Source of the DNA: Microlunatus phosphovorus NM-1 | GTDB lineage: Bacteria > Actinomycetota > Actinomycetes > Propionibacteriales > Propionibacteriaceae | DNA: 64,000 nt | Assembly (NCBI RefSeq): GCF_000270245.1 | Contig: NC_015635.1 | Span: 5,270,001-5,334,000 of the forward strand | Reading direction: 5' to 3' | Part shown: in pieces, positions 18,441 to 25,425 of the stretch | Position numbering within the stretch: the first letter of the stretch is position 1 | Layout of the letters: every line of letters begins with the position of its first letter | Notes under the pieces: generated by a model | Told to the model about the DNA's origin: nothing | Seen by the model: only the letters and a program-made list of their open reading frames with translations | Databases searched by the model: none | Position numbers and translations under genes: made by a program

Positions 18441-18869
18441 TCACCGCACCTCCTCCGAGCCTGCGTACGCCACCGAGGACACCGTGCTCGGCAACCCTGG
18501 GGCGGTGAGCGCGACGGCCACCGATGCCGTCACGGTCACCACGAAGTCGATCTGATCGCCCACGCGCTTGCAGGCGACGACCTGAGCCCGATGGGCGGTG
18601 GCGTTCGCCCGAGCCGCATCACAAGGATCACCGCCCTGACTGGCCGTCGTCGCTCCGCTCAGGGCCGCCAGGTCGGCTGCCGCCCGCGCCCGGTGCCCAG
18701 CGATGACGTACCCGCTGATGAGCATCGCCGCATAGCCCAGCATCATCACCACAGCGCAGACCCCAACCATCAGCATGGTGCCGCTGCCCCGCTCGTCCCG
18801 AACCCCGCGTTCTGCACCGGAATCCACTTCCCACGTGGGTTTTGCTCCTGAAGATCCCGACCCGATCAC
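18441..18869 (-). CDS. TadG-like / Rv3654c-type pilus-assembly protein
   Basis: Predicted membrane-anchored pseudopilin-like protein of the Tad (Flp pilus) system, 142 residues. A short cytoplasmic head ending in RGSGTM precedes one long hydrophobic segment (LMVGVCAVVMMLGYAAMLIS) and the helix RARAAADLAALSGA, the usual signature of the Rv3654c/TadE-G group. The remainder is extracytoplasmic with two cysteines (DPCDAA, VACKRV) that could form a disulfide. It is the last gene of the DUF4244-TadE-TadG run; its start overlaps the TadE stop by four bases (ATGA). Expression should follow the upstream block at 19660-19735. Confidence 0.8.
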   Translation of the reverse strand: MIGSGSSGAKPTWEVDSGAERGVRDERGSGTMLMVGVCAVVMMLGYAAMLISGYVIAGHRARAAADLAALSGATTASQGGDPCDAARANATAHRAQVVACKRVGDQIDFVVTVTASVAVALTAPGLPSTVSSVAYAGSEEVR

Positions 18870-19237
18870 CGTGGCTCCTCCGGCTCCGGCACGACCTCAG
18901 CCTGAGCCCGCAGCGGTACGGCCACCAGGTTCCGGGCCAGCGGCCGAGCTACGACGGCGACCTCCACCCGTACGACGCCATGGGTACGGGTGATCGTGAC
19001 CCGGGCACCAGGTGGAGCCTCCCGCTTGGCCACGGCTACCGCGGAATCGTCGCCGCGAGCGGCCTGCCGAGCCACCTCGGCGGCCGTGTCAATGCAACGC
19101 ACCTGCATCACCATCAGATAGATGCCCCAGCTGAGCAGCAACATCACCACCAGGGCGGCGAGGGTGGCAACGGCCAGTTCGGCCGTCACCATCCCCCGTT
19201 CCCCGCGTCGGCTGCCGCCGTACGGACGAAGCGACAT
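18866..19237 (-). CDS. TadE-like minor pilin
   Basis: Predicted minor pilin of the Tad secretion/pilus system, 123 residues. The head RGERGMVTAELAV is a prepilin-peptidase-type site (Gly before Met, Glu five residues on), followed by the hydrophobic segment ATLAALVVMLLLSWGIYL and the typical RCIDTAAEVARQAARG. The C-terminal part is a beta-rich extracytoplasmic tail ending in Pro/Glu. It lies 3 bases after the DUF4244 gene and overlaps the next gene by 4 bases, so the three are co-translated. Corresponds in position to Rv3655c. Confidence 0.85.
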   Translation of the reverse strand: MSLRPYGGSRRGERGMVTAELAVATLAALVVMLLLSWGIYLMVMQVRCIDTAAEVARQAARGDDSAVAVAKREAPPGARVTITRTHGVVRVEVAVVARPLARNLVAVPLRAQAEVVPEPEEPR

Positions 19238-19240
19238 CGT

Positions 19241-19585
19241 TCAGTTCTTGACCATGAAACCGCTGAACGAGTGGATCAGCTGCAGCACGAACTTCAGCAG
19301 CGCGTCCTGCACGGCACCGTTGGTGACCACCGCGATCAACACCCCGGCGATCCCGATGGCAGCGATGATGCCCACCGCCCACTCCGCGCTGACCATGCCG
19401 CGCTGACTGCGCCGGGCTCCCCCGCCCGCCATTGCTCCGGCGCCGTCGGCCGACACCAACGCGATGCCCATGGTCTGCCTCGAACCACCGTCCTCGGACC
19501 AGCCGCTCGTCCCGATTGCCCCGATCCCGACTGCCCCGCTTCCGATCTCGGTGCCATCGACGACCTCGAACCTTGTCGTACCCAT
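19241..19585 (-). CDS. DUF4244 protein, probable Flp-type major pilin
   Basis: Protein of 114 residues with a poorly conserved head and the C-terminal core RGMVSAEWAVGIIAAIGIAGVL, a prepilin-like cleavage region followed by a single hydrophobic helix and a short amphipathic end, as in Rv3656c. It occupies the place of a Flp pilin in the locus, so it is likely the structural subunit; no other Flp candidate is present. The ATG at 19585 is chosen because GGAGG lies eight bases upstream. It starts the second tad transcription unit, downstream of a conserved upstream block shared with ssd. Confidence 0.8.
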   Translation of the reverse strand: MGTTRFEVVDGTEIGSGAVGIGAIGTSGWSEDGGSRQTMGIALVSADGAGAMAGGGARRSQRGMVSAEWAVGIIAAIGIAGVLIAVVTNGAVQDALLKFVLQLIHSFSGFMVKN

Positions 19586-19659
19586 TTCCCAGACCTCCTG
19601 CTTCCCCACCAACTGGTGAGCTGCACCCGCCCTGGATGCGTAGGGAGTCTGTGGATGTC

Positions 19660-19735
19660 GGGGTCGTTTCGTACGGGGTCGTCTGCAATCTGTTGACAGA
19701 GCTTCAAATGGCGCTCAGGCCTGTGGACAACTTCG
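19660..19735 (-). promoter_or_regulatory. Conserved upstream block of DUF4244-TadE-TadG operon with paired DnaA-box-like sites
   Basis: Minus strand reads TTGTCCACA (19722-19730), then 31 bases on CTGTCAACA (19691-19699), then CCGTACGAAA (19667-19676). The same three elements with identical spacing occur upstream of ssd (25342-25425). TTGTCCACA matches the actinobacterial DnaA-box form. The pair could bind DnaA or an unrelated regulator; the shared spacing suggests a functional promoter region. Confidence 0.65.
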
Positions 19736-19821
19736 CCAACCGGTGAGCAGGCGTGTGGTAGGGCTGCCCGAGCAGCACCAATCCTGGAACGAAGGTGTCG
19801 GCCGATCTCCCGCGACCAAGC

Positions 19822-21081
19822 TCACCTGACCAGCTCGCCCAGCTGGGCGACGGCCCGCGCCACCCCGTCCTCGGACCGGATCCGGTCGCCCAACGCAGCT
19901 GCCCGGAGCTTTCGGACCGGGTCGACCACGTCAGTGATCATCGCCGTCAGCGAGTCGGCGTTGAGCTGGTGCCGGCGGATCGGCGAGGCACCGACGCCGA
20001 GCTCGAAAACCCGACGACCCCAATACGGCTGATCGCCGATGTGCGCCACGACGCCCTGCGGGATGCCCGCGGCGAGAGCCGCCGCGGTCGTACCGGCGCC
20101 GCCGTGGTGGATCGCGCCGGCACACTGTGGAAGCAGCCAACCGTGCGGAACCGACCCGACCATCAATACGTCGTCCGACTCCGCGCCGACTGAAGCCAGC
20201 CCGGCTCCACCGGAGGAGACGATGCCGCGCCGGCCCGTCCTGGCCAGGGCTTCGAGGATCGAGGCCATCGTGCCCGCGGCATCCTGGGTCGACATCGAGC
20301 CGAAGCCGACATAGACCGGGGGTTCGCCGGCGGTCAGGAACTCCTCGATCCAACCGCGTACAGGCTCGGGTGGAGCGCCGCCGTCGAGGAACCAGTAGCC
20401 GGTGATCAGCTGCCCGGTGGGCCAGTCCGCAGGCGGTGGCACGACAGCGGCGGAGAACCCGAGCAGGCTCGGCGTGTCCCGGAAGATCTGACGTATCTGA
20501 CGCCGGCTCCCTCGTGGTAGTCCCAGCAACTCCCGTACCCGCTCGCCGGGAGGTTGGATGATGTCCGCCAGGATCCAGGAACCCATGATGCCGGCGACCA
20601 GATTCCGCCGCGACCACCGGTCCGGGAGCGGAGCTTGGACGCCCGCCCAGCCCGCTCTGGTCGGCTCGAACGGCGCCAACAAAGCAATCACGTGCCTGGC
20701 GCCGGATGCTTCGGCAAGCGCCTGGGAACCGTACGCGGTCAGTACGCCGGAGATGACCAGATCGAATGAGCCAGCCAGAGCTGCCGTCTCACCGGCCATC
20801 TGGACTCCCCAAGTCCGGACGAACGCCCGGAAGCGACGCAGCTCGACGAACTGGTTGTGGCTGCTGTGGCCCAGCCACTCTCGACCAAGCTCCGAATCCA
20901 TCACCGCGGTAGCGCTCAGCTTGGAGCCGATGAACGCCAGCCCGTGCTCGCGGACCAGGCTGCCGAAGTCTCCGGTCGAGCAGACGGTGACCTCGTGACC
21001 GGCGCGCCGCAATCCGACTCCGAGAGCGACAAACGGCTGTACATCGCCTCGCGAACCCGCCGCCACCAGGAGCACCCGCAT
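19822..21081 (-). CDS. UGT/MGT-type glycosyltransferase (sterol-glucosyltransferase-like)
   Basis: Predicted GT-B fold family 1 glycosyltransferase, 419 residues. The N-terminus MRVLLVAAGSRGDVQPF is the acceptor-domain start typical of sterol and glycopeptide/macrolide glucosyltransferases. The donor domain has VYVGFGSMSTQDA and the nucleotide-sugar motif HHGGAGTTAAALAAGIPQ followed by GDQPYWGRRV. The ATG at 21081 begins exactly at this family start; an upstream extension of 17 codons is unlikely. The acceptor is unknown. It sits between tadC and DUF4244 on the same strand, splitting the Tad locus, which is unusual. It could be an insertion or could modify the pilus; only position suggests the latter. 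Confidence 0.88.
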   Translation of the reverse strand: MRVLLVAAGSRGDVQPFVALGVGLRRAGHEVTVCSTGDFGSLVREHGLAFIGSKLSATAVMDSELGREWLGHSSHNQFVELRRFRAFVRTWGVQMAGETAALAGSFDLVISGVLTAYGSQALAEASGARHVIALLAPFEPTRAGWAGVQAPLPDRWSRRNLVAGIMGSWILADIIQPPGERVRELLGLPRGSRRQIRQIFRDTPSLLGFSAAVVPPPADWPTGQLITGYWFLDGGAPPEPVRGWIEEFLTAGEPPVYVGFGSMSTQDAAGTMASILEALARTGRRGIVSSGGAGLASVGAESDDVLMVGSVPHGWLLPQCAGAIHHGGAGTTAAALAAGIPQGVVAHIGDQPYWGRRVFELGVGASPIRRHQLNADSLTAMITDVVDPVRKLRAAALGDRIRSEDGVARAVAQLGELVR

Positions 21082-21221
21082 GTCCGAAGGGTAGTGATCC
21101 CGGTGCCGGCGCCCTGAGGCGGCGTCCAACACTCATCGAGAAGGAGGCTTGGCACCCAAATCTTGCCGAATCAGGTGCCGAACCTCCTTCTCGCGGACCT
21201 GATCCGGAAGGCTGCCTTCAC

Positions 21222-22094
21222 TCAGAAGTGGAGTGCATTGAGCACGGCGGAGGCCACCGTCGGCACGATTCCGATCAGCAGGAATGCGGGAATGAAGCAC
21301 ACCATCAACGGCAGGACGCTCCGTACGCCGACTCGACGAGCCGCCGACTCGACCTGACCACGACGCTCCTCCCGAGCGACCTCCGCGTGCACGAGCAGGC
21401 TTTCCACCAAGAGCGCTCCGGTCTCCACCGATCGAGCAAGATCGAGAGCGGCCGGACCCAGCTCCGGATGGCTGGCCAGCGATCGCCAAGCCGAGACATC
21501 GTCGTGACCGAGATCGGTGAGCCGCAGCACCTGGCCGAGGTCATCACCCAACGGACCGTCGACCACCTCGACCACGGATCGCAGCGCCGCCCTGACCGGC
21601 AGTCCTGCGGCCAGGCAGGCCGCCAACAGGTCGAGCGCCTGCGGCGCGTCGGCGATCCGGCGTTGCCGGGCTCGCCGAGTCGCTGACGGCTCCAACCAAC
21701 CCAGGACTACCGCGCCGGTCAAGGCGACGACGGCACCGATCGCCAAGGCGGCGATCGACGGTAGCCAGCCGGCCGCGGACGGCCCGGCCCGGAGCAGGAC
21801 GAAAGCAACTGCCACGCCCGGCATCGCCGCCTGGCCCAGTCGTCGGGTGAGCGGCGCAGCGTCCGGACGCCCTCGCAGCCACCGGGGCAGCGGCCGAACC
21901 GACCGCTGGACCACACGAGCATCGATCGGCGGCGGCCACGACAAGGACAGCGCCAGGGTCAGTAGCGCGGCCGTAACGACCATCCAGCCGGTGATCGAGC
22001 TCGCCGCATCGGCAGCCCACGCATCAGCACGCGTCGCGCCGGCGACCACGGCATCAGCAGCGGTCCGGATTGCGACCAACACCTCGTCCCACAT
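21222..22094 (-). CDS. tadC: TadC-like type II secretion F domain membrane protein
   Basis: Inner-membrane platform protein of the Tad pilus machine, 290 residues. It has an N-terminal membrane segment (GWMVVTAALLTLALSLSW), a second pair (MPGVAVAFVLLRAG, ALAIGAVVALTGAVVLGWL), a cytoplasmic T2SSF domain with LDLLAACLAAGLPVRAAL and LLVESLLVHAEVAREE, and a C-terminal segment (PLMVCFIPAFLLIGIVPTVAS). The ATG overlaps the tadB stop (TGATG), giving tight coupling. It should pair with TadB beneath the TadA ATPase. Confidence 0.87.
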   Translation of the reverse strand: MWDEVLVAIRTAADAVVAGATRADAWAADAASSITGWMVVTAALLTLALSLSWPPPIDARVVQRSVRPLPRWLRGRPDAAPLTRRLGQAAMPGVAVAFVLLRAGPSAAGWLPSIAALAIGAVVALTGAVVLGWLEPSATRRARQRRIADAPQALDLLAACLAAGLPVRAALRSVVEVVDGPLGDDLGQVLRLTDLGHDDVSAWRSLASHPELGPAALDLARSVETGALLVESLLVHAEVAREERRGQVESAARRVGVRSVLPLMVCFIPAFLLIGIVPTVASAVLNALHF

Positions 22095-22903
22095 CACATT
22101 GGTCTCCCCACCTGACGCGCCAGCCACTCGATCCACAACACTCCACAGGCGGCGAGGATCGCGCCCAGCACCAGACAGGCCCACCCGAACGGGCCCCCGA
22201 CCAGGAATCCCAGCGGGTCGCCACCCAACAGATAGCCGAGACCGATGCCGCACAAAGGCAGGGCCGCCATCACCCGGCCGGTGGCGCGTGGACCCGCCAA
22301 CTCGGCCGCCACCGTACGTTCGACGGACTGGTCGCTACGCAGAGCGTGGGCGACCTGATCCAACAGCTCCGCCATCGGGGCACCGGTCCTGGTGCCCACC
22401 TGCCAGGCGCGGGCCAGGTCCCGCAACCCCGCGCAACCGGGTTGCTGGGCCTCTTCCAGCAGTGCGGCGACGACGTCGCCACCGTTGCGATGCACCCGGG
22501 CGGTCACCGCCAGCACCGGCGCGTCCGCCGCGGCCAGGGTCAGCGCCTCAGCCGGGATCCGGCCCACGCGCACCTGGTTGGCAATCACCGAGCATGCCTG
22601 GGCCACCTCGGCGCGGATCGCGTGCTCCCGGCGAGTCCGCCGGCCCAACGCGAAGAGTCGCCCGGCGGCGCCGAGAGCGATCAGCACCGCGAAGGCAACC
22701 GCGGCAGCGGCCGGTCCGGCGATCAGAGCGGCTCCGACGACGACCGTGAGACCGGCGAACCCGAGCGCAGCCCAGCGGAGCCACGGCCGCGCTCGTCGGC
22801 GGCGCCGACTGGCCGACTGGTCCAATCGGCCCCGCACCGGGTCGGCTGGTCCGATCCACAACCACGCGGCAGCGGCGGAGCAGAGCAGGGTCAGTCCGAT
22901 CAC
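22094..22903 (-). CDS. tadB: TadB-like type II secretion F domain membrane protein
   Basis: Partner of TadC in the pilus platform, 269 residues. An N-terminal membrane segment (VIGLTLLCSAAAAWLW) is followed by a hydrophobic pair, the T2SSF domain (ACSVIANQVRVGRIPAEALTL, TGAPMAELLDQVAHALR), and a C-terminal pair of segments. The GTG at 22903 is chosen because it starts right at the first membrane segment and its GTGA overlaps the stop of a 28-codon ORF that itself overlaps the tadA stop. A longer frame reaching back into tadA is out of keeping with the family. Confidence 0.8.
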   Translation of the reverse strand: MIGLTLLCSAAAAWLWIGPADPVRGRLDQSASRRRRRARPWLRWAALGFAGLTVVVGAALIAGPAAAAVAFAVLIALGAAGRLFALGRRTRREHAIRAEVAQACSVIANQVRVGRIPAEALTLAAADAPVLAVTARVHRNGGDVVAALLEEAQQPGCAGLRDLARAWQVGTRTGAPMAELLDQVAHALRSDQSVERTVAAELAGPRATGRVMAALPLCGIGLGYLLGGDPLGFLVGGPFGWACLVLGAILAACGVLWIEWLARQVGRPM

Positions 22904-22986
22904 GGTTCGAACCTGTCTGCCGCCGCTCGCCTCGGTCGGATCCGTCCTGGCGTCACCGGTCGCGTCAGGACCCCCTGCGTTCTCAT
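22900..22986 (-). CDS. Candidate 28-residue ORF linking tadA to tadB
   Basis: ATG at 22986 overlaps the tadA TGA (ATGA), and its own TGA overlaps the tadB GTG (GTGA). It encodes a basic peptide starting MRTQGVLTRPVTPGRI, with about seven Arg and no membrane segment. The double 4-base overlap is the usual sign of translational coupling, so it may be a real small protein or a coupling device between the two cistrons. No homology is known to me. Confidence 0.4.
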   Translation of the reverse strand: MRTQGVLTRPVTPGRIRPRRAAADRFEP

Positions 22987-24254
22987 CGGTCGAGGATCCT
23001 CTCCAGTTGCTGGCTGCCCGGTCCTCGACGGGTACGCGGTCCGGAGCAGTCGATGGCTGGCACGGTCCGGACCCAGCCGGTGCCGGGATCACGCTCGAGC
23101 ACGTGCAGCTCACTGACCCGGCGACGTCCCGCCCGATCACGGCGAATGTGCACGACGACGTCCAATGCGGAGGCCAGCTGGGCGTGCAGGGCCGCGCGGT
23201 CGAGGTTGCCGAGAACACCCAGCGCTTCGAGCCGAACCGGAACGTCTTCGGCCGAGTTTGCGTGCACGGTGCCGCAACCACCTTCGTGACCGGTGTTCAT
23301 CGCCGCCAGCAGATCGCAGATCTCCGCACCCCGCACCTCGCCCACGACCAGTCGATCGGGCCGCATCCGCAAGGACTGGCGCACCAGATCAGTCAGCGTG
23401 ATCGCTCCACGCCCCTCGGCATTGGCCGGCCGACCCTCCAGACTGACCACGTGCGGATGATCGGGCCTCAACTCACGGGAGTCCTCGACCACCACCAGAC
23501 GCTCGGCAGGCGGCACCAGGCCCAACAGCGCCGCCAGCAACGTGGTCTTGCCCGAGCCGGTGCCGCCGGACACCAAGAAGGCAGCCCGACTCTCCACCAG
23601 CCGTTCCAGCACGGCCGCCAGGCTTGGGCTCACGGCGCCCGTCGCCACGCAATCCGCCAGGGAGAAGGCCCGTCGAGCCGGCACCCGCAGCGAGAGGCAG
23701 GTCCCCGGCAACGCCTGCGTAGCCAATGCCGCGTGCACCCGCGTGCCGTCGGGCAGCCGGGTATCGACGAAGGGTGAGCTGTCGTCGAGCCGCCGACCGG
23801 TGGCTGCGGCCAGACGCTGAGCCAACCGGCGTACCTGTGCATCATCAGCAAACCGAACCTCAGCCGGCACCAACCCATCGCCACGATCGACCCACACCTG
23901 ATCCGGTCCGTTCACCAACACATCGGTGACACCAGGCTCGCGCAGCAGGCCGGTGAGCGGCCCGGCGCCGACCATCTCTCGCCGCAGCGCCTCGACCACT
24001 GCCAGCAACGACTCATCGGTGACCAGCCGACCCTCGGCGCGCATCGCATCCGCGACATCGGCCGGAGTGTGCGCCCGCGACAGATCGGCCAGCCGTCGCC
24101 GGATCGGCTCCAGGTCCAGCCCGGCACCCTGGCCCCTCGCACTCAGACTCCTTGCGCCGCGGATCACGGCGCCATGCACTCCCGCTCCGGGAAACCCAGC
24201 TCCGAGGGCGCCGGCCGAGTCCCCGGACTCTGCCGGTTCCGCGAGCGCCCTCAT
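22983..24254 (-). CDS. tadA: TadA/CpaF-family secretion ATPase
   Basis: Cytoplasmic hexameric ATPase that drives Tad pilus assembly, 423 residues. The N-terminal domain carries VTDVLVNGPDQVWVDRGDG. The catalytic domain shows Walker A GGTGSGKTT (near residue 231), the Asp box VVVEDSRELRPDHPHVVSLE, Walker B VVGEVRGAE and the His box NTGHEGGCGTVHANS. The first ~45 residues are Ala/Gly rich and not conserved. Its start overlaps the ssd stop by four bases (ATGA), and its stop overlaps a small ORF before tadB. Corresponds to Rv3659c by position. Confidence 0.94.
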   Translation of the reverse strand: MRALAEPAESGDSAGALGAGFPGAGVHGAVIRGARSLSARGQGAGLDLEPIRRRLADLSRAHTPADVADAMRAEGRLVTDESLLAVVEALRREMVGAGPLTGLLREPGVTDVLVNGPDQVWVDRGDGLVPAEVRFADDAQVRRLAQRLAAATGRRLDDSSPFVDTRLPDGTRVHAALATQALPGTCLSLRVPARRAFSLADCVATGAVSPSLAAVLERLVESRAAFLVSGGTGSGKTTLLAALLGLVPPAERLVVVEDSRELRPDHPHVVSLEGRPANAEGRGAITLTDLVRQSLRMRPDRLVVGEVRGAEICDLLAAMNTGHEGGCGTVHANSAEDVPVRLEALGVLGNLDRAALHAQLASALDVVVHIRRDRAGRRRVSELHVLERDPGTGWVRTVPAIDCSGPRTRRGPGSQQLERILDR

Positions 24255-25327
24255 GACCGACCCTGGCGAACAGGCAACTGGCGAACAGGCAACTGACCGA
24301 GGATCTGACGACAGGCGCGACCCAGGTGGGAGCGACGTAGCCGGCCGGGCGGCTCACCTCGTTCAGCGGACAGCCGGGCGCTGCCCTCGTCGGCGAGGCA
24401 GGCGACCACGGGCAGCCCCAGACTCTCCTCCACCAGATCCGGGCTCATCCCTGCGACCCGACGGCCGCGCAACAGCACCTGAGTGCCGGCCGAAGGCAGC
24501 CAGGCCGCCACCTCCCGCGCCGCCGCCAGACCTCGCAGGTCGGCTCGGACGACCAGCAGGGTCAGCTCGGCCCGACGGGCCGCCTCCAGGACGTCGGGGC
24601 TCAACCACCGCGGCAGGTCGACGATCGTCAGATCGTGGCTGCGGGTCGTGGACCGCAGCACAGTAGCCAACTGCTCCGCCCCGATCTCGATCGGTGCAGT
24701 TGGCTGACCGCCCCGCACCCCGGTGAGCAGATCGATCCCATCGACGTACGGCAACTGGCCGCTGAGGTCACCGACATGCCCGGTCGCGTGGGCGAGCTGA
24801 GGCCAGCGCCAGCCATCCAGCTGCTCGGCGCCCAGCAACAAGTCCAGGCCACCGCCTCGCAGATCTCCGTCGATCAGCACGGTACGGAGACCGTCGGCGG
24901 CCGCTGTGACGGCCAGCGCGGCCGCACAGGTCGAGCTACCCACGCCGCCGACCGCTCCCACCACAGCGAGCAGTCGGCCGGCACCGGTCCGACGCCCGGT
25001 CGCATCGGCCAGGGCCGCGGCGAACCAGCTGTCTGCCGAAGGCAGGGCCGCCACCGCCGCCCCCAAGGGCACCGACCAGCGACAGAGCTCGTCGCTGTCC
25101 CGGTCCTCGCCGGCGACGAACACATCGGCCCGTCGCGGCAGCCCCAACGCCGCGAGCCGCTCCGCCTTGTCGCCGCCGATCACGACCGCGGTCGCCTCCC
25201 GCCACACAGCCCGCACCGCCCCGGGGTCGGACAGCACCCTCGGCTCCAGACCCACCGCGGCCAGCGTGGTCAGCAATCGGTCCAGCAGTTCGTCATCCGT
25301 AGTGAGCACGGCGGCATAGGCATCCAC
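24251..25327 (-). CDS. Ssd/CpaE-like P-loop ATPase of the Tad locus
   Basis: MinD/ParA-like protein placed first in the tad operon, as Rv3660c (septum-site-determining protein) is in mycobacteria; CpaE-type partners localise the pilus machine. It is 358 residues from the GTG at 25327. An N-terminal receiver-like region (AVLTTDDELLDRLLTTLAAVG) precedes a deviant Walker A VGAVGGVGSSTCAAAL, then VLIDGDLRGGGLDLLLG and TIVDLPRW. The extreme C-terminus has a short duplicated motif, QLPVRQLPVRQ. The GTG is chosen because the domain begins there; there is no ribosome-binding site, so translation may be leaderless. Upstream lies the paired DnaA-box-like block shared with DUF4244. Confidence 0.85.
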   Translation of the reverse strand: MDAYAAVLTTDDELLDRLLTTLAAVGLEPRVLSDPGAVRAVWREATAVVIGGDKAERLAALGLPRRADVFVAGEDRDSDELCRWSVPLGAAVAALPSADSWFAAALADATGRRTGAGRLLAVVGAVGGVGSSTCAAALAVTAAADGLRTVLIDGDLRGGGLDLLLGAEQLDGWRWPQLAHATGHVGDLSGQLPYVDGIDLLTGVRGGQPTAPIEIGAEQLATVLRSTTRSHDLTIVDLPRWLSPDVLEAARRAELTLLVVRADLRGLAAAREVAAWLPSAGTQVLLRGRRVAGMSPDLVEESLGLPVVACLADEGSARLSAERGEPPGRLRRSHLGRACRQILGQLPVRQLPVRQGRS

Positions 25328-25341
25328 GCCTAGACAATGCG

Positions 25342-25425
25342 TACGTCGGGTCGGTTTCGTACGGTGCTCTTGCAGATCTGTGGACAGCGCTTCGAATCCC
25401 GTTCGGCCCTGTGGATAAGTCGAGA
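25342..25425 (-). promoter_or_regulatory. Conserved upstream block of ssd-tadABC operon with paired DnaA-box-like sites
   Basis: Minus strand reads TTATCCACA (25410-25418, a perfect DnaA box), then 31 bases on CTGTCCACA (25379-25387), then CCGTACGAAA (25355-25364), followed by the ssd GTG. The block aligns over about 80 bases with that at 19660-19735, with the same spacing between all three elements. Confidence 0.7.

Follow-up and report, generated by a model that had tools for sequence, protein, structure and literature searches.

Two operons of the Tad pilus locus of Microlunatus phosphovorus NM-1, ssd-tadABC and DUF4244-tadE, are preceded by the same block of about 80 bp, which raises the question of what this block controls and which protein reads it. 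Both copies are minus-strand features of the window, the whole 64,000-nucleotide stretch of DNA analyzed here (genome positions 5270001-5334000 of 5,683,123 bases); coordinates below are those of the window unless the genome is named. A preliminary description of the window had taken the block for a shared operator-promoter whose paired DnaA-box-like words might tie pilus expression to replication initiation, with another regulator as the alternative. Our analysis makes it very probable that this operator-promoter belongs to a whole regulon for natural competence in the class Actinomycetes.

The duplicated block at the two tad operons

Upstream of ssd, the minus strand reads TTATCCACA from position 25418, CTGTCCACA from 25387 (31 bp on), and CCGTACGAAA from 25364. 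Upstream of DUF4244, it reads TTGTCCACA from 19730, CTGTCAACA from 19699 (31 bp on), and CCGTACGAAA from 19676. The words and their positions were confirmed, and the duplication is real; the previously described spacing of 31 bases between the boxes holds, but the third word follows the second box at 23 bp in both copies, not at 24. Aligned with the other sites in the genome, box 1 of the ssd promoter is TTATCCACAGG (25408..25418) and box 2 is CTGTCCACAGAT (25376..25387); the corresponding boxes of the DUF4244 promoter are TTGTCCACAGG (19720..19730) and CTGTCAACAGAT (19688..19699). A conserved CCGTACGAAAC in both promoters (25354..25364 and 19666..19676) may represent a weak -35 region. The predicted -10 hexamers, CATTGT for ssd (25334..25339) and CAGACT for DUF4244 (19646..19651), each start 45 bp after the first base of the box 2 core.

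Fourteen copies and the genes behind them

The double box, with 20 to 45 bp between the words, matched the genome four times and its reversed pattern not at all, which is beyond chance. Besides the two in the window, these four exact double boxes comprise one ahead of a DUF4192 gene and one ahead of a DUF559-type gene. With up to three mismatches allowed, the downstream half of the block, CTGTCMACAGAT-N11-CCGNNCGAA, gave 11 matches in the genome (4 exact; 1 for the reversed pattern), while TTRTCCACAGG-N20-CTGTCCACAG gave 5 (1 reversed). From 10 of the 11 downstream-half matches we built a sequence-only profile, excluding one that had three mismatches and lay inside an open reading frame (L012). 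This profile retrieved 14 sites from the genome with E values from 6e-23 to 1.7e-8, the next best match having an E value of 0.17.

Thirteen of the 14 sites precede a gene of the same sense, and one is an orphan. The genes and operons behind them are ssd-tadABC; DUF4244-tadE with the next gene; comEA followed by comEC; yraN-comM-dprA; recA with a recX-like gene (identified by eye); an ssb-type gene; an M23 peptidase gene; a DUF4192 gene; and five DUF559/AbiEi-type genes. Family scans confirmed ComEA (Pfam), the N-terminal part of ComEC, SSB, DUF4192, M23, YraN, YifB/ComM, DprA, RecA, Ssd, TadA, and TadE. DUF559 is matched by two of the five DUF559/AbiEi-type proteins and AbiEi_4 by four, with two of the AbiEi_4 scores (24.8 and 23.8 bits) falling just under the curated cutoff of 25 bits. 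The sites at comEA, at yraN-comM-dprA, and at two DUF559/AbiEi-type genes were absent from the training set and are new predictions of the profile. Because the search was seeded with nothing but the tad block and took no account of gene identity, the gene list is an outcome of the search rather than of selection. It resembles the list of genes for natural transformation: one shared cis element stands before the genes for an uptake pilus, ComEA/ComEC, DprA/ComM, SSB, and RecA. The preliminary description had held that many copies unrelated to tad genes would speak against its reading. This objection holds by half: the genome does have 12 further copies, yet the majority stand in front of competence-type genes, which makes the block neither tad specific nor random.

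Conservation in the family and across the class

The profile matched 18 of 40 related genomes (own genome included), all belonging to one family, and none of 16 genomes from other families of the order. We retrieved the loci of 28 of the 68 matches outside the own genome. Of these 28 loci, 26 carry a homologue of a regulon gene, the two others being L054 and L057. In the 42 sites formed by these 28 loci (L054 and L057 included) and the 14 own sites (orphan included), the two boxes are 30 bp apart in 25, 31 bp in 11, and 27 to 29 or 33 bp in six. A further alignment (A3), from which L029, L054, and L057 were excluded, was used for no count. The converse test, starting from the gene, found the double box upstream of comEA at 15 of 22 loci of the same family (own included), a result equaled by none of 60 shuffles, and picked up two genomes that the profile had missed (G015 and G018). 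It covers 30 of the 39 relatives that have comEA; at one locus (L256) the contig starts too near the gene, and the site there is among the profile matches.

Across the class, the exact double box TCCACAG-N21-25-TCCACAGA, in which two TCCACAG words lie 28 to 32 bp apart, was found in 62 of 246 genomes and 38 of 95 genera, compared with 0 of 246 genomes for the reversed pattern. We retrieved 122 of these sites, all outside the own genome (L074-L103 and L128-L133 among them); five listed sites lie outside this set (G267:C17:579, G131:C235, G124:C23, G266:C26, and G085:C27). A site was assigned when tblastn, with the own-genome proteins and one ComFC from a class locus as queries, placed a homologue of the same sense no more than 2.6 kb downstream. 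By this measure 63 of the 122 sites were assigned: 12 to comEA/comEC, 11 to ssd/tadA, 8 each to yraN/comM and DUF559-type genes, 5 each to recA, ssb, and DUF4192, 4 each to M23 and DUF4244/tadE, and 1 to comFC, the last being a self-match to the locus that supplied the query. Among the unassigned sites listed, inspection by eye pointed to more DUF559-type genes, divergent ssb genes, DUF222-like genes, and genes for NlpC/P60-like peptidases; At such sites, a divergent ssb and a DUF222 protein (one of each) were verified with Pfam. Six class genomes have two sites on the same strand about 4 kb apart that mark both tad operons, although in L129 and L130 the second operon was recognized by eye only.

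Outside the class we saw no sign of the regulon. In a search of the phylum (217 genomes, 198 of them from other classes), 11 of the 198 genomes matched; 9 of these 11, all of one family, carry an additional, third TCCACA word in the interval, arranged as in an origin.

Promoter geometry and proposed mechanism

Only the two words had been used to select the class sites, and the -10 hexamer played no part. Counted from where the second core begins, a TANNNT hexamer nevertheless stands at +45/+46 in 17 of the 63 assigned sites and only once elsewhere between 25 and 79. The looser YANNNT occurs at positions 44 to 47 in 42 of the 63 assigned and 24 of the 59 unassigned sites, against a background of 48 in 1,464 four-position windows (∼3%). 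ATG or GTG codons in the assigned sites peak at 57 to 59 (32 hits), and a further 11 fall at 49, inside the -10 stretch. The own genome follows the same plan, with a -10 at 44 to 45 in 10 of 14 sites and a start codon at 57 in 8 of 14. A -10 hexamer is thus present at a fixed distance, as in a sigma-70-type promoter. Together with the fixed geometry of the boxes and their conservation in relatives and in the class, this strongly supports the earlier reading of the block as a shared operator-promoter. The layout suggests a promoter that is often leaderless and would depend on an activator bound at two sites on the same face of the DNA, with both the activation and the transcription start predicted from sequence.

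We propose that a putative activator occupies a pair of direct TCCACAG words whose spacing of ∼30 bp (three helical turns) places both on one face of the DNA. From there it would assist the housekeeping RNA polymerase, the promoter itself having a poor -35. The YANNNT -10 would start ∼45 bp after the second word and, in many genes, ∼12 bp before the start codon, so that the transcripts are predicted to be leaderless. Induction would then jointly turn on the Tad/Flp uptake pilus, ComEA-ComEC, ComM-DprA, an SSB, RecA, a cell wall peptidase, DUF4192, and several DUF559/AbiEi-type proteins. The sites, their geometry, the genes behind them, and their conservation are direct observations; activation, the sigma factor involved, the transcription start, and the transformation phenotype are predictions that follow from them.

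Several observations weigh against a competence regulon of this kind. In the own genome, 4 of 14 sites have no -10. The orphan copy (genome 2820267-2820356) keeps good boxes at a spacing of 33 bp but lacks both a -10 where one is expected and any clear gene; it is directed toward the 3' end of metH. The comEC gene behind comEA is split by an IS3-like insertion with two open reading frames, as judged by eye (L116:5449-9121, with the insertion at L116:6874-8057; L116 is genome 3715300-3735299). With comEC interrupted, this isolate may not be transformable, though its regulon promoters look intact. comEA is present in 39 of 40 relatives, yet the profile matched only 18, and among comEA loci from other families of the order only 2 of 8 matched, weakly; many genomes therefore control comEA otherwise or through words that the patterns miss. 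In the class, 184 of 246 genomes lack the exact double box, and 59 of the 122 sites have no tblastn assignment, some of them chance-like by eye.

The last such point is the spacing control, in which the word starts were set 38 to 42 bp apart. It returned far fewer sites, 17 in 14 of 246 genomes, with 2 for the reversed pattern and none in the own genome. Four of the 17 precede regulon homologues, against 63 of the 122 main sites, and 7 of the 17 have a -10, a proportion only a little lower than the 66 of 122 found there. The control sites include apparently real ones (at comEA, at M23, and at two DUF559-like genes), so that the control is not a clean chance level. Some promoters seem to use one extra helical turn (∼41 bp).

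Which protein reads the block

The preliminary description had raised DnaA as one possibility, and this proposal, in which the words serve as DnaA boxes and couple DNA uptake to the replication initiator, survives best among the alternatives, although we regard it as unlikely. The block shares the TCCACA core with DnaA boxes and DnaA-controlled promoters, and its box 1 is often TTGTCCACA or TTATCCACA. TTGTCCACA, which is box 1 of many sites, is given in part of one report as the high-affinity DnaA box of Mycobacterium tuberculosis and Streptomyces coelicolor (PMC4285127). The class consensus YYGTCCACA is also close to the boxes behind dnaA in the same genomes, and a single protein of the own genome matches PF08299, so that no DnaA paralogue is available to act instead. 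A paralogue as activator was rejected here on the same count; across the class, PF08299 is matched in 244 of 246 genomes, five of which have two or three matches.

The block appears to differ from DnaA boxes in its longer conserved word, the degeneracy of box 2 at positions 1 and 2, the strict pairing, and the fixed distance to the -10. G at position 10 is found in 80 of 84 boxes of the genus and family sites; for the boxes that lie behind dnaA in class genomes, the count is 17 of 28 (Fisher P = 3e-5). This contrast is weakened by different sampling, since the 28 boxes represent only 6 of 20 regions and a pattern that favors G at this position supplied the genus sites. Box 2 further conserves A11 (37/42) and T12 (38/42). 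At position 2 it has T in only 21 of 42 sites, being split between T and C, whereas box 1 has T in 37 of 42; in the class sites the corresponding counts are 29 of 63 for box 1 and 25 of 63 for box 2, and the boxes beside dnaA are themselves degenerate here (19/28). The origin-like third word outside the class also speaks against DnaA. With the longer word and with YY rather than TT at positions 1 and 2 of box 2, a tie to replication through DnaA is the less probable reading. The alternative already raised, another regulator that uses a TGTCCACAG-like word, fits better.

The boldest form of the DnaA proposal, which we think improbable, is that an ancient two-word operator read by DnaA runs competence in much of Actinomycetes. 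DNA uptake, RecA, SSB, and DprA would then follow the state of replication initiation, and the DUF559/AbiEi- and DUF222-type proteins might be unrecognized competence nucleases, some perhaps selfish genes spread by transformation.

A competence regulon with an activator other than DnaA could be read by a small HTH_17 protein (excisionase/BldC-like) of the kind of Mlut_14660, binding the direct repeats; the present data leave this specific candidate with a small chance. In Micrococcus luteus, passages of one study place a cluster of comEA/EC promoter mutations in and near Mlut_14660, an HTH_17 gene divergent from the cpaB and tadZ genes, and note that one missense change reproduced the phenotype (PMC8467076). 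HTH_17 proteins, however, occur in 28 of 28 genomes searched, whether the motif is present or not. Of the own genome's 10 matches, the nine inspected by eye lie in integrative elements, by PIN-like toxin-antitoxin-type genes, or beside proC, and none is beside a competence gene. Two HTH_17 genes (genome 5244751 and 5257399) have TTGTCCACA ∼250 bp upstream and were rejected as regulon sites, the word lying inside an open reading frame of two related integrative elements. These elements, each with a replication-type gene, an HTH_17 gene, and an integrase gene by eye, lie shortly to the left of the window (L315 and L316; genome 5236000-5269999), and in each the reading frame with TTGTCCACA is the one before the HTH_17 gene.

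Regulators might also be encoded within the regulon, if the AbiEi-type winged-helix domains of its DUF559-family genes acted on their own and other promoters. Four of the five DUF559-family proteins of this genome match AbiEi_4, and such genes are frequent at class sites (by tblastn and by eye). Two of these matches are the sub-cutoff ones noted above, and a single sharp motif would have to be common to several divergent AbiEi-type paralogues. The known AbiEi operator is, moreover, an inverted repeat and not a direct one, and we consider this explanation very unlikely.

That the block is an SOS or DNA damage promoter (LexA or PafBC) rather than a competence promoter is hardly tenable: recA and the ssb-type gene are members of the site set, but to our knowledge the damage genes do not include tad, comEA, or dprA, and only recA among the 14 sites has an exact LexA-type palindrome (ssd has one with a single mismatch) or an exact TGTCRGTG. 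The recA promoter (genome 2258298-2258382) carries the palindromic GAACACGTGTTC ∼20 bp upstream of box 1 and, in addition, TGTCAGTG-N8-TATGGT, its -10 hexamer coinciding with that of the competence promoter. We take the palindrome to be LexA-like and the TGTCAGTG word to be PafBC-like. Neither GAAC-N4-GTTC nor TGTCRGTG-N8-TANNNT is a feature of the regulon, since only recA of the 14 sites has both exactly. The recA promoter seems to combine three regulatory inputs.

Relation to known competence systems

Competence regulons built on a single shared box include those of the ComK box in Bacillus, the CRP-S/Sxy sites in gammaproteobacteria, and the com-box of streptococcal SigX. The regulon described here shares with them one DNA signal before genes for the uptake pilus, comEA/comEC, ssb, dprA-type genes, and recA. 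It differs in its signal, two direct TCCACAG words ∼30 bp apart and ∼45 bp above a -10, often with leaderless transcripts predicted, and in the inclusion of DUF559/AbiEi-type and DUF4192 genes. The SigX promoter word is mentioned in a passage of PMC8467076.

The nearest counterpart in machinery is the competence system of M. luteus (Flp/tad-1, tad-2, and comEA/EC), also an actinobacterium. Transformation there requires tad genes, and the combination of tad with ComEA/ComEC genes is described as frequent in actinobacteria (both from sections of PMC4322843). An excerpt of a report from January 2026 states that the upstream signal or cascade of M. luteus competence is still to be identified (PMC12849477). 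Our literature searches found no description of the double box. For the competence switch of high-GC Gram-positive bacteria, a defined double word (28 to 32 bp apart) with a fixed -10 offers bait for the regulator. It also hints at the actinobacteria that may be transformable, and it brings domain-named families into the list of likely competence genes, namely, DUF4192, DUF559/AbiEi type, and, less surely, DUF222 type.

Gene content of the tad operons and side observations

All genes of the two tad operons lie on the minus strand. ssd (24251..25327) encodes a CpaE/TadZ-like protein (TIGR03815); we chose its GTG start from the position of the promoter, which puts the start codon at +57 relative to the core of box 2, and its transcript is probably leaderless. 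tadA, encoding the ATPase (22983..24254; TIGR03819), follows, and then tadB and tadC, named by position and after the preliminary description. The second operon comprises the small pilin-like DUF4244 gene (19241..19612; PF14029), a gene for a tadE-like minor pilin (18866..19237; NF041390, TadE_Rv3655c), and a third gene (18441..18869) called tadG in the preliminary description, for which related loci have a homologous stretch after their tadE. A gene resembling a UGT-like glycosyltransferase by eye (19822-21132) separates tadC from the DUF4244 promoter, and the two tad promoters are 5.7 kb apart here, compared with ∼4 kb in the six class genomes with paired sites. An ssd-based search for related loci returned one distant Caballeronia locus.

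Some neighbors of the class sites recur. XRE-type genes stand behind three of them (L156, L161, and L076), those of L161 and L076 being confirmed by Pfam. DUF222-like genes directly follow the double box in several copies in one genome (G267; L133 and L136-L139, by eye) and in another (G162; L186, with a DUF222 match), as if a multicopy DUF222-type family rode on the competence promoter; a 98-residue piece of one such protein from G267 had no Pfam match. Finally, a pair of genes for a STAS-like anti-sigma antagonist and an anti-sigma-type ATPase (by eye) lies near the tad locus and a helicase gene in L128-L132, in five genomes of two families.

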